From the NCBI RefSeq assembly GCF_017307055.1, contig NZ_JAFLEQ010000016.1:190910-254909 (forward strand): DNA of 64,000 bases, read 5' to 3'. The translations under genes and the position numbers were made by a program. This document shows, piece after piece, positions 59,564 to 64,000 of the stretch. The number at the start of each line of letters is the position of its first letter. Position 1 is the stretch's first letter. This DNA comes from Corynebacterium mendelii (GTDB taxonomy: Bacteria > Actinomycetota > Actinomycetes > Mycobacteriales > Mycobacteriaceae). Under the pieces are notes generated by a model, which had not been told where the DNA came from, did no database searches, and saw only the letters and a list, made by a program, of their open reading frames with translations.

Positions 59564-62518
59564 TCAGCGGTGACGGGAATGCGGATGGGGTTCATCCGTG
59601 GTCACCGGGCCAATTCGCAGAGCCGGGTGCCCGGGTTGTGTCTGGTTATCGTCGTCACCGCCGTTGCCGTTGTGGTTGTGTGTGCGGTGGTTGGCGAGGA
59701 GTTCGTGGATGTGGTGTTTGTTGCGGTTTTTTTCGGCGGCGGTGCCGACGAGTTCGAGGGGGTCGGTGCGCCACATGTTTGTGGGTGTGCGGAGTGCGTT
59801 GATGAGGTGTTCGCGGTTGGGTTTGTGGGCGAGTTGGTCGGTGACGTAGTCGATGATTTCGATGGCGAGTGAGTCGCAGATGACTTCGGTGTAGCCGGGG
59901 ACGGTGAGGGTGTCGTGGTCGATGGTGTCAAGGGTTTTGATGGTGTTGCTCTTGTAGCCGATGGTGTGGGCCAGGCGCATGAGTTTCGCGAGTCGGATGA
60001 TGTGGCCGATTCCGTCGGTGACGTCGAATCCGAGGTTGCGTGCGAGGGCGGGGGCGTAGATGGTGCTGGGGACCAGTGGGAGGGGGTAGTTGGACGCGAG
60101 GGCGATGCCTTCGGGTGTGGGGATGGGTGTGTTGTCGTTGTCGCCGAGGGGGCGGGTGTAGCGGCCGTGTCCTTTCATGGGGCGGGTGCGGTAGTTGCTG
60201 GCGAGCAGGATGTTGATGATTTCGGTGGGGTGGCCGAGGGCGACGCCGGGTTGGGTGTCGGCGTCGAGAGGATCGATGGTGGTGCCGTTGTCGGTGTCGG
60301 TGGCGTAGCCGCAGGTGTAGATCCAGGTGCCGTCGGCGATTTCGTCGGCGGTGTAGATGCCGTCGTCGGCGGGTGCGCAGTTGAGGGTTTCGGGTGTGTT
60401 GGCGTAGTCGATGATTTCGTCGATGGTGTCGACGATGAGGGTGGCGTGGGGGAGGTGTTTTTGGGGTTTCCGGGTGGTGGTTTGGTGGTGTTTCAGGCCC
60501 GAGAGGATGCCGGGTGTGTGTCCGAGGGCTTTTTCCGAGGCGCGGTAGGACAGGTGGGCGATCTCGGGGACGCGGATGCCGTGGATGGTGGTGGGCCGGG
60601 TGTTGCGAAGGTCTTTGATCGCGGAGATCAGGCAGCGGGCGGACAGGGGCAGCCGGTGGTAGGCGAATGCTTGGCCGGCGGGGGTGAATTCTTTCTCGAT
60701 GTCCATGGTGTAGAGGTAGCCGCCGGTTTTATCGCGGGCGAGTGCCATTAGTTGCATGCCGCCTGGGGTGGTGGCGGTATCGGGGTAGTCGCTGTCGTCG
60801 TCGATACCGAGGTAGTCTTTCGTCGCTTCGCCGAGGATGTGTGCGGTGCGGCGGCGGCTGAGCTTTGCCGGGGTGTAGAAGCCCTGGGTGACCAGGACGT
60901 CGCGTCCGATGGGGGCGTAGGCGAAGCCGTCGGTGGTGTGTTCGGGGAACACGGCGGATTCGACGAGGAGGCCCTTGTGGTCGAGTCCCCAGGTGGATGC
61001 GGGGCGGTCGTATTTTTCGGGTGTGCACCGGTCGGTGGCGATGAAGGTGTTGATGCCGGTGGTGTGGAACAGCAGAACTTTCGGGTTGGTGCGGGGGACA
61101 GTGATGAGCATGGTGTGGTTGGTGAGTTTCTGGTGGCAGGTTTCACAGACCGGGATGAGGTTGTCGATGTCTGTCAGTCCGCCGCGTTGCCATTCAAAGA
61201 TGTGGTGGATTTGCAGGAAAGACCGGTTGGGGCAGTAGGGGACCGCGCATTTCCCGCCGTAGAAGTAGTTGAGGACTTCGATTTGCCGGTCGCTGGCGGT
61301 GCGTTGGGTGCGGCCGAGGTACAGATCGCCGGGTTTGGTGCCGTCGGTTTCCAGGGTCCGGTAGTTGGAGTTGATGAGCATGTGCATCCGGTCGGCGGGC
61401 CGGAGATCGGTTCCGTGGGTATGGACACGACCGTCAGCGCGGACAGTGACCGCCATTTGCGCGCCCGGGGCGTGTTTGGTGCGGCTGGAAAATCCTTTTC
61501 CCGTTAACGCGACATCGAGCAGGTGCGCGAACGCCGGCAACGTGTTGGCTTGTGAGGGTTGGCCGAACCGTGACACGTGACGGGTCACAACCGATGCCAG
61601 CATTGTTTGTTCACAGACCTTGCGCACCAAACGCTTCAACCGCACAACCTCACCACCATCAACAAACCCGCCCGCAGCAGCATCAGCATCAGCATCAGCA
61701 GACGTGCCAACGCACATCACCGCAGCTCGTGGTTTTTTCCCACTTGACGCCTGGACGGTGGTGTCGCCGCTGGTGTTGGCGGTGGTGTCGGTGACGGGGG
61801 TTGTTTCGATGGCGTTGACGATGGCAGTGGCGGTGGTGGTGAGTTTGTCGTGGTCGATGGTTTCTGCCAGGGGGTGGGCGTGGTTGGTGTTGTCGTCCAG
61901 TGCTTGGGCGAGGTCGCCGGTTTGGAGTGCCTCGTGGAGGATTTTTTGTGCTTGTCCGGCTTCGATTTCGGCCATTTTCAGCAGGGCGTTGAGCTTCATG
62001 GCGGTCATGGGGTCCAGGCGTGCGTGGATGGTCATGACACCGGTTTGTTTGTTGGTGCTGGTTTTCAGGAAGTAGCGATGGTCGGGTTTGGGTTTGTTGA
62101 TGGGGTCGATGCCGGTGAGTTCTTCTTTCATGCCGGTGACTGTCAGTCGGGAGGCGAGGGTGCAGAATTCGGCGTCCGAGAGTGCACCGTCGTGGAGTTT
62201 CATTTGTTCGACGTGTGCGGTGGTGAATTTTCCGTCGAGGTAGTTCACGCAGATCAGTTCGTGTTCGAGGAGGTAGCGGCCGATGGACATGGCGCGGTAG
62301 GCCCAGTTACGGCTGCGGTCGAAAGCGGACATCAGGTAGTCGGCCAGGTCACTGCAGCCGATGCGTTTGTGGGCGTGGCGTACCGCCATCACTCCCATGG
62401 TCACGATTGCGCGGCATTCGTAGTGGGCATAGCAGTGCATGGATTCCTGCAGGGTGCGCAGAACCTCGTTGTCATTCATCGCTACGACGTTGTCGATGAA
62501 TTTTTTTCCGTTCGGCAT
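59564..62518 (-). CDS. DUF222 / HNH endonuclease-type protein with ~500-residue C-terminal extension
   Basis: 984 residues from MPNGKKFIDN (AGGGGG upstream). The first part is a DUF222 (13E12-repeat-type) domain, about residues 20-260: SRNWAYRAMSIGRYLLEHELI ... HARLDPMTAMKLNALLKMAE. A complete HNH motif follows at 424-462 (C424/C429, H438-H439, N453, C458/C461-H462). Typical DUF222-HNH proteins stop near 400-550; here about 500 more residues follow that resemble nothing I know. Codon choice and strand bias (Thr/Asn/His-rich, many ACC/ACA/CAC) differ from neighbours. Probably part of a mobile or multicopy family. Confidence 0.85.
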   Translation of the reverse strand: MPNGKKFIDNVVAMNDNEVLRTLQESMHCYAHYECRAIVTMGVMAVRHAHKRIGCSDLADYLMSAFDRSRNWAYRAMSIGRYLLEHELICVNYLDGKFTTAHVEQMKLHDGALSDAEFCTLASRLTVTGMKEELTGIDPINKPKPDHRYFLKTSTNKQTGVMTIHARLDPMTAMKLNALLKMAEIEAGQAQKILHEALQTGDLAQALDDNTNHAHPLAETIDHDKLTTTATAIVNAIETTPVTDTTANTSGDTTVQASSGKKPRAAVMCVGTSADADADAAAGGFVDGGEVVRLKRLVRKVCEQTMLASVVTRHVSRFGQPSQANTLPAFAHLLDVALTGKGFSSRTKHAPGAQMAVTVRADGRVHTHGTDLRPADRMHMLINSNYRTLETDGTKPGDLYLGRTQRTASDRQIEVLNYFYGGKCAVPYCPNRSFLQIHHIFEWQRGGLTDIDNLIPVCETCHQKLTNHTMLITVPRTNPKVLLFHTTGINTFIATDRCTPEKYDRPASTWGLDHKGLLVESAVFPEHTTDGFAYAPIGRDVLVTQGFYTPAKLSRRRTAHILGEATKDYLGIDDDSDYPDTATTPGGMQLMALARDKTGGYLYTMDIEKEFTPAGQAFAYHRLPLSARCLISAIKDLRNTRPTTIHGIRVPEIAHLSYRASEKALGHTPGILSGLKHHQTTTRKPQKHLPHATLIVDTIDEIIDYANTPETLNCAPADDGIYTADEIADGTWIYTCGYATDTDNGTTIDPLDADTQPGVALGHPTEIINILLASNYRTRPMKGHGRYTRPLGDNDNTPIPTPEGIALASNYPLPLVPSTIYAPALARNLGFDVTDGIGHIIRLAKLMRLAHTIGYKSNTIKTLDTIDHDTLTVPGYTEVICDSLAIEIIDYVTDQLAHKPNREHLINALRTPTNMWRTDPLELVGTAAEKNRNKHHIHELLANHRTHNHNGNGGDDDNQTQPGHPALRIGPVTTDEPHPHSRHR

Positions 62519-62954
62519 GGCGGATGATCCCCCTTGGACTAACAAATGTGTGCTGGTATGTGTCGCCTGTATGTGTCCCCGGGGGCCGCGGTCCCCTGTT
62601 TTTCCGCGGCCTCACCGGTTCAGGCGTATCGGGTGGCAACTGTTTTTTGTTGCTGTCCTACCTGTCAACCTACAACATGATTAGATACTGTGTTCGATGT
62701 TCGAATTCTTCAGCCGTTATTTTTGTCCGAACATATTCGGCGTTTCTGCCGCTCGTTGCGGTGATCTGGGCTTATAGTTTCGAAGATTTGTAAATGCTGT
62801 TGGGGCACCATTTCGGGGTGTCAAGTGCAACTTGATACCTGGTGGAAATGTCGGCTGTGTGGGTCTGATGTTCGAATAGAAAAAATCTCGCGGAATCGAA
62901 CGCAATAAAAACACGCCCCACCCGGCGCAGGGGCTTCATGGCGGTGTGTCCGGC

Positions 62955-63000
62955 CTGTTGGAAAATCCTCAACTGTGTGTGTTTTCTCAACGTTTGACTT
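62955..63000 (+). repeat. Short dispersed repeat, copy R1
   Basis: Core AATCCTCAACTGTG and CTCAACGTTTGACTT. Four or five differences from R3, including a one-base insertion near the left end; lacks the CTTTTCCTG extension seen in R2 and R3. Confidence 0.85.
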
Positions 63001-63215
63001 CCCCGAGAGGGTATTTCCTGTCACCGGCAGCCAGCACCATGTGTTGGGGCACTGATCGGGGACGGCAACCATACGGGTAGCGGGAACAGATCGATGTCAG
63101 CGACCGGACGTGGCGGCGTCACCGAGTTGTAGCCCGGGTGGATTGAGCTGAGCTGTGGTGGCGTGCTCGTTTGCTGCGGGGCCAACCACACATTGGCTCA
63201 GTGATGGGGCACGCC

Positions 63216-63269
63216 CTGTCGAGAATCCTCAACTGTGCGTATTTTCCCAACGTTTGACTTCTTTTCCTG
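63216..63269 (+). repeat. Short dispersed repeat, copy R2
   Basis: 54 bases with only two differences from R3; contains AATCCTCAACTGTG and CCCAACGTTTGACTT, extended by CTTTTCCTG. Confidence 0.9.
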
Positions 63270-63422
63270 GTGTTTTTCCGTAGATCCCGCCTGCGGGCGT
63301 TCAAGGTCGCGCGCGGAGGCCGGGTCGGGCCGAATGCTTTTCGACTGTTCGGTTGGACATGCCGGTGTCATACGGCTACTGCCCGGGGCGCAGTCAAGCC
63401 GGTTTCACCGGGGTGGTGGGGT

Positions 63423-63476
63423 CTGTCGGGAATCCTCAACTGTGCGTGTTTTCCCAACGTTTGACTTCTTTTCCTG
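63423..63476 (+). repeat. Short dispersed repeat, copy R3
   Basis: 54 bases, 52 identical to R2. Starts 207 bases after the start of R2, which itself starts 261 bases after R1; the sequence between copies is unrelated. Confidence 0.9.
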
Positions 63477-63587
63477 CGATTTTGGGTGTTTCGTAGTTTT
63501 TGGTGGGGACTTGGACGGGCGTTGATTGTTTTCCTCAACTAGTGGGCAGTAGCGGGGGCTCGTTGGTGGGTTTGCCGATGGGGCACA

Positions 63588-63593
63588 TAGAGT
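63588..63593 (+). promoter_or_regulatory. -10 element of the EIIC-like gene, leaderless start
   Basis: TAGAGT followed by eight bases and ATG at 63602, with no Shine-Dalgarno. Confidence 0.5.
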
Positions 63594-63601
63594 TTTCCAC
63601 C

Positions 63602-64000
63602 ATGACCGACCAGACGCCGTCCACTGCCAGCCAGCCGCAGCCTGCGGAGGATGTGATCCGCGGCCAACAGGCCCGTGATCCCCACCGTAAAACCGAGTTG
63701 AAAGCCACACACGGTATCGAACTCGGGGGACCGGGGGCCTTCACCATGAAAGTCCTCAACGGTATTGCGATTGCGGTGGTGGTGTCGCTGGCGCCGACCG
63801 CACTGCTGGGTTTCCTGCTGAAGGCCATGCTCCCTGTTTTTCCGCAGGGGGCTGCCCTGATTGAGTTGACGTCCCTGGCGGCGACCACCATGCCCGTGCT
63901 GATCGGTGTGTTCATTGCCATGCAGTTCAAGCTCACGCCCATTCAGACGGGTTCTGTGGCTATTGCGGCGGTTGCTGGTTCTGGGATCGCGAAACTCGAT
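63602..64000 (+). CDS. PTS EIIC-like membrane protein (PTS_EIIC_2 type), N-terminal part
   Basis: 133 codons to the window edge. A 45-residue hydrophilic arm leads to GPGAFTMKVLNGIAIAVVVSLAPTALLGFLLKAMLP, the opening of the EIIC_2 family, then TMPVLIGVFIAMQFKLTPIQTGSVAIAAVAGSG. These are membrane proteins resembling the sugar-transporting EIIC of phosphotransferase systems, often without linked EIIA/EIIB. The substrate is unknown. The rest of the gene lies beyond the window. Confidence 0.75.
   Translation, partial: MTDQTPSTASQPQPAEDVIRGQQARDPHRKTELKATHGIELGGPGAFTMKVLNGIAIAVVVSLAPTALLGFLLKAMLPVFPQGAALIELTSLAATTMPVLIGVFIAMQFKLTPIQTGSVAIAAVAGSGIAKLD

Follow-up and report, generated by a model that had tools for sequence, protein, structure and literature searches.

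Short sequences repeated in near-identical form within intergenic DNA are known from several bacterial systems. Clustered operator or enhancer sites stand side by side in a gap near a gene start, REP-like elements are dispersed among intergenic regions, CRISPR arrays combine direct repeats with short, regular and unrelated spacers, and multi-copy small-RNA families such as LhrC share a short repeated core and pyrimidine-rich stretches. The window considered here (the whole stretch of 64,000 nucleotides of Corynebacterium mendelii DNA that was analysed) holds three AT-rich direct repeats of 38-54 bases, R1, R2 and R3, all in a single intergenic gap. They resemble a CRISPR array in being direct repeats with unrelated spacers and differ from one in having just three copies and spacers that are neither regular nor short (R1-R2, 63002-63215, 214 bases; R2-R3, 63270-63422, 153 bases); as to spacing, then, the sequence-only reading was right that they are not CRISPR. 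Judged from their sequence and setting, we give a probability of roughly 0.4 to R1-R3 being a lineage-specific cluster of cis-acting DNA sites, probably serving the EIIC-type gene that follows.

R1 lies at 62956-63001 on the plus strand and its core, 62964-63001, is the same as R3 (63423-63476, plus strand) at 36 of 38 positions. R2 (63216-63269, plus strand) matches R3 at 52 of 54 positions on alignment, as had been claimed. R1 and R2 agree at 35 of the 38 core positions and the likeness of R1 drops off on either side of the core. The distances from start to start are 260 bases (R1 to R2) and 207 bases (R2 to R3), so that of the earlier figures of about 261 and 207 the second stands and the first is amended. 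AACGTT and TTGACTT, described as neighbours in each copy, are found together in all three and overlap by one base. Ungapped comparison of the 1,083-base gap with itself reaches a top score of 46, and none of 200 dinucleotide shuffles exceeded 13, which upholds the claim of three near-identical copies in the same orientation. Across 77 kb of contiguous source sequence, a scan for direct-repeat pairs within 1.5 kb scoring at least 20 returned one further pair (score 23, distance 876). A weight matrix built from the three copies scores them at 66-75 and nothing else in the 77 kb, on either strand, above 4.8. The copies have a GC content of 39.1, 44.4 and 48.1%, against 63.6% in the R1-R2 spacer and 65.4% in the R2-R3 spacer; since the copies share descent, this dip is one observation and not three. 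The two spacers are dissimilar, and once the repeats are cut out the units resemble one another no more than unrelated stretches do (99, 102 and 237 of 400 null segments give an equal or better score), in agreement with the earlier description of unrelated sequence between the copies. No inverted repeat or palindrome was found within the copies. Of the 15 occurrences of GGGGCAC, a motif picked post hoc, in the 64 kb window, four fall within the gap on its plus strand (62802, 63046, 63206 and 63580).

The gap is bounded by two divergent genes. On the minus strand, 59564-62518 encodes an HNH protein of 984 residues (PF01844, E 1.7e-9), with its ATG at 62518 and 437 bases between that ATG and R1. 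On the plus strand, the gene for a PTS_EIIC_2 membrane protein (PF13303, E 1.8e-83) has its ATG at 63602, 125 bases after R3, and is the first gene downstream of R3; it occupies 63602-64000 and extends beyond the window end, to a total of 389 residues. Terminator-like hairpins, overlapping and adjacent, lie on the minus strand at 62888-62932, between R1 and the HNH gene. The region has five such hairpins on both strands against 2.4 +/- 1.6 expected, a weak excess, and three of the five belong to this minus-strand group; they hint, weakly, that the HNH gene would be parted from any minus-strand transcription crossing R1. A scan of the region for one promoter type, sigma-70-like, gave none (0 against 0.6 expected). 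The stretch upstream of the HNH gene carries, on the minus strand, the short inverted repeats TTCGAACATCGAA (62693-62705), CCGAATATGTTCGG (62727-62740) and TCAAGTTGCACTTGA (62821-62835), all three possible operators of that gene. Also outside the repeats, the minus strand of 62519-62955 gave the one notable fold in the set that included the spacers and units, somewhat more stable than shuffles (z-score -2.17, 4 of 200 shuffles as good).

The repeat is confined to this gap. With up to three mismatches allowed, the 34-base core is found in the source genome at no place besides these three, both halves of the core lead again to these three places alone, and the 34-base core is absent from all 241 congeners (242 genomes of the genus including the source). 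Collections from outside the genus may omit the source genome or one very near to it. Among the GTDB contigs, where the source genome has possibly been left out, a 28-base pattern, 22 of its bases fixed, is nowhere matched exactly; four patterns have no match among viral contigs, and BLASTN of the region against plasmids and phages gave no repeat copy. The many BLAST matches at E 0.03-2 are chance matches of 14-33 bases, and a literature search found nothing on this repeat. The sequence-only reading had proposed a functional repeat family. With three copies in the source genome, 0 of 241 congeners and none in the other collections, the repeat was found here only and the idea of a family falls by that reading's own criterion, so a candidate is struck from the list whichever reading of the copies holds; the copies are more likely to be a small element of local control, or left over from a duplication, than a new repeat family. 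As the core is limited to three places in the source genome, the HNH paralogue of that genome is without a copy. A fourth, older copy near 62705 was considered and rejected (matrix score -1.3, spacing 259, with alignments placing no core there). When the unit preceding R1 was compared with the three units, 19, 204 and 5 of 400 null segments scored as high.

We propose that a DNA-binding protein would recognise the three AT-rich sites of 38-54 bases side by side. Lying ahead of the EIIC-type gene in one orientation, the sites would most likely adjust the transcription of that gene, with the divergent HNH gene as a second candidate target. Retention of the core by selection, its binding by a protein and the identity of the gene served are all three points that we infer. 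Several observations favour such sites: (i) near-identity is confined to the repeats and the spacers do not align; (ii) AT-rich copies stand amid GC-rich spacers; (iii) the three copies run in the same direction in one gap between divergent genes, with none elsewhere in the genome; (iv) the gap has neither gene-like codon usage in the seven ORFs that were scored nor an RNA family. In addition, weak traces in the flanks (left of R1-R3, right of R2-R3) would fit decayed flanks around a kept core. Against such sites, the repeat has no copy in the relatives searched from which conservation over time could be shown, a core of 38 bases with hardly any variation is long for a single operator, the spacings of 260 and 207 have no common phase, the region lacks a sigma-70-like promoter, no residual similarity is left without the cores, and the remaining flank comparisons are not significant. 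The earlier suggestion of a DNA or RNA function survives in its first half, a role at the level of DNA still being the most likely reading; the small-RNA family is unsupported.

The main rival reading, conceivable if on balance somewhat improbable, is that the copies are functionless and that a short segment was simply copied twice at short range by a slip of replication or repair (template switching). This would agree with a repeat found here only, with no conserved structure or coding signal, and with an identity that stops sharply at points differing between R1 and R2/R3, like copy events of unequal length. Three copies of 38-54 bases in the same direction and without neighbouring sequence would, however, require repeated short copying, and the weak flank similarity in some comparisons points instead to longer old units. 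These comparisons used anchored gapped extension past the core at two gap costs, with 1000 real segments of similar GC as the null. For R2-R3, 6 null segments scored as high as the right flank at both gap costs, and 49 and 5 as high as the left. The left flank of R1-R3 was equalled by 15 and 2, and that of R1-R2 by 82 and 91; the right flanks of R1-R2 (686 and 1000) and R1-R3 (241 and 389) are not significant. Against simple shuffles (n=200) the corresponding counts were 2 on the right and 19 on the left for R2-R3, 0 on the left and 18 on the right for R1-R3, and 4 on the left and 124 on the right for R1-R2. A degraded tandem duplication of 210-260 bases was rejected, the significance that gapped extension reaches in some comparisons being absent once the cores are removed. 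A plain tandem duplication had been denied from the outset, and correctly, as the core-removed spacers are no more alike than unrelated sequence. Either old units have lost all likeness outside the core, a pattern that would imply selection, or only short segments were copied, in which case no function is needed.

That each copy encodes a small RNA or an RNA leader element is improbable. The plus strand of the copies has C/U-rich stretches, and on the minus strand a weak hairpin can be drawn in all three. Set against this, an Rfam search of 62400-63800 gave nothing at E values of 1 or below, the folds of the copies do not go beyond those of shuffles (z -1.07 to 0.67 for 100 bases, -1.69 to 0.61 for 47 bases), and promoter-like sites are lacking; the spacers and units fold with z-scores of -1.08 to 0.30. 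With no Rfam match, ordinary fold z-scores and no sigma-70-like promoter, the small-RNA family of the sequence-only reading is not borne out.

We think it slightly less probable still that, in the NPQLCVFSQRLTS frame of the plus strand, the copies are ORFs for short peptides or what remains of a duplicated coding tail. The peptide noted earlier on the minus strand (KSNVGKxRTVEDS) is present in the three copies as described. The accompanying statement that differences change amino acids holds in that minus frame and fails in the NPQLCVFSQRLTS frame, where each of the three core differences falls on a third codon position and is synonymous, and where the frame is open through each copy. Silent core differences alone are weak evidence, because chance would put three changes in the same codon phase 1 time in 9. 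Beyond the core, one R2-R3 difference alters an amino acid in the NPQLCVFSQRLTS frame. Hand-placed gaps whose lengths are multiples of three bring R2 and R3 to the same TAG, and R1 continues past the stop. The codon scores of the NPQLCVFSQRLTS frames (-0.25, -0.35 and -0.19 per codon) are all below the 5th percentile of gene windows, which is -0.134 with a median of 0.39 (EIIC, 0.30), on a training set of 35 ORFs selected for length, some of them possibly false. None of the seven ORFs scored in the gap has gene-like codon usage, the best, at -0.127, being just over that percentile. The NPQLCVFSQRLTS-frame peptide has no convincing relative in the 241 congeners (best E 0.14), plasmids or phages.

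The direct repeats bound GC-rich spacers as mobile-element ends, recombination sites or a cassette array might, the first of these also entertained in the sequence-only reading; such an origin is very doubtful given copies that have no inverted repeats and are found nowhere else, viral contigs, plasmids and phages included. Least probable of all is that R1-R3 are target sites of the adjoining orphan 984-residue HNH protein, which would then bind or cut a private site array and so control its own gene or EIIC.

Relatives of EIIC occur in 45 of the 241 congeners, five of them weak or partial, with a top identity of 62%, and none of these 45 has the repeat upstream of the gene. A direct repeat scoring at least 18 is present in 4 of 31 fetched congener EIIC loci (L040, L083, L085 and L093); only L040 has it before the EIIC gene, in a sequence unrelated to R1-R3. 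The two 35-base copies in L040 (749-783 and 1208-1242) are 91% identical and the first lies within an inverted repeat with 36-base arms. The source genome encodes a single paralogue of the HNH protein, with 41% identity (contig C9, locus L046, 1333-4305, minus strand), and both proteins are about 985 residues long. Scoring three candidates per genome, we found HNH matches in 186 of the 241 congeners and, among the matches listed, none that extends past residue 539 of 984; no HNH relative was confirmed in the GTDB contigs. The HNH proteins have no match to Pfam DUF222 at E up to 1. The C-terminal half of these proteins of about 985 residues looks like an orphan domain.

Congener HNH genes have repeats of their own. 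A repeated palindrome lies at most 300 bases upstream in 11 of 29 congener HNH loci against 0 of 104 control ORFs, a count based on the longest ORF, which for L056 and L075 at least lies on the wrong strand. The palindrome classes just upstream of these genes (L047-L075) are CTCCGCANTGCGGAG, TTCCGC-GCGGAA types, ATTCTGCGGCCGCAGAAT and GTGCGCAGCTGCGCAC. Of 16 congener genomes, partly picked because the palindrome had already been seen there, 10 carry CTATGCN3-4GCATAG, with 1-21 copies each that lie in intergenic clusters (L136-L155 and others; reversed control 0), such as the 12 copies in about 620 bases of L136 (5294-5912). It is a REP-like dispersed intergenic element. In 20 fetched cluster regions an HNH gene adjoins in 7 and is absent in 13, as judged with an HMM made from just 5 of 29 sequences. 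Palindromes as an HNH-specific partner were rejected: one class is dispersed, 13 of 20 cluster regions are without HNH, and R1-R3 are not palindromic. Direct repeats occur in 8 of 16 gaps of 150-1500 bases upstream of HNH against 9 of 57 other gaps, and in regions chosen by HNH alone (n=20) in 3 of 9 against 0 of 31, those three loci having been known beforehand; a preference of direct repeats for gaps upstream of HNH is suggestive only. SOS boxes upstream of HNH, scanned for with a LexA box consensus, were also rejected (32 window matches against 25.7 +/- 4.9 expected).

If R1-R3 are real operators they would offer an entry to the regulation of PTS_EIIC_2-type proteins in the genus; as neutral copies they would instead illustrate the local origin of short direct repeats without a mobile element. 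Compared with small-RNA families of the LhrC type, they share a short repeated core and pyrimidine-rich stretches and are without a stable conserved fold, a promoter or a terminator for each copy. With REP-like and other dispersed repeats they have in common that they are intergenic and near-identical; they differ in being restricted to one gap and in not being palindromic. Clustered operator or enhancer sites usually have a shorter core than R1-R3, where no known regulator or promoter was found, and it is these sites that R1-R3 resemble as AT-rich copies running in the same direction in a gap near the start of a gene.
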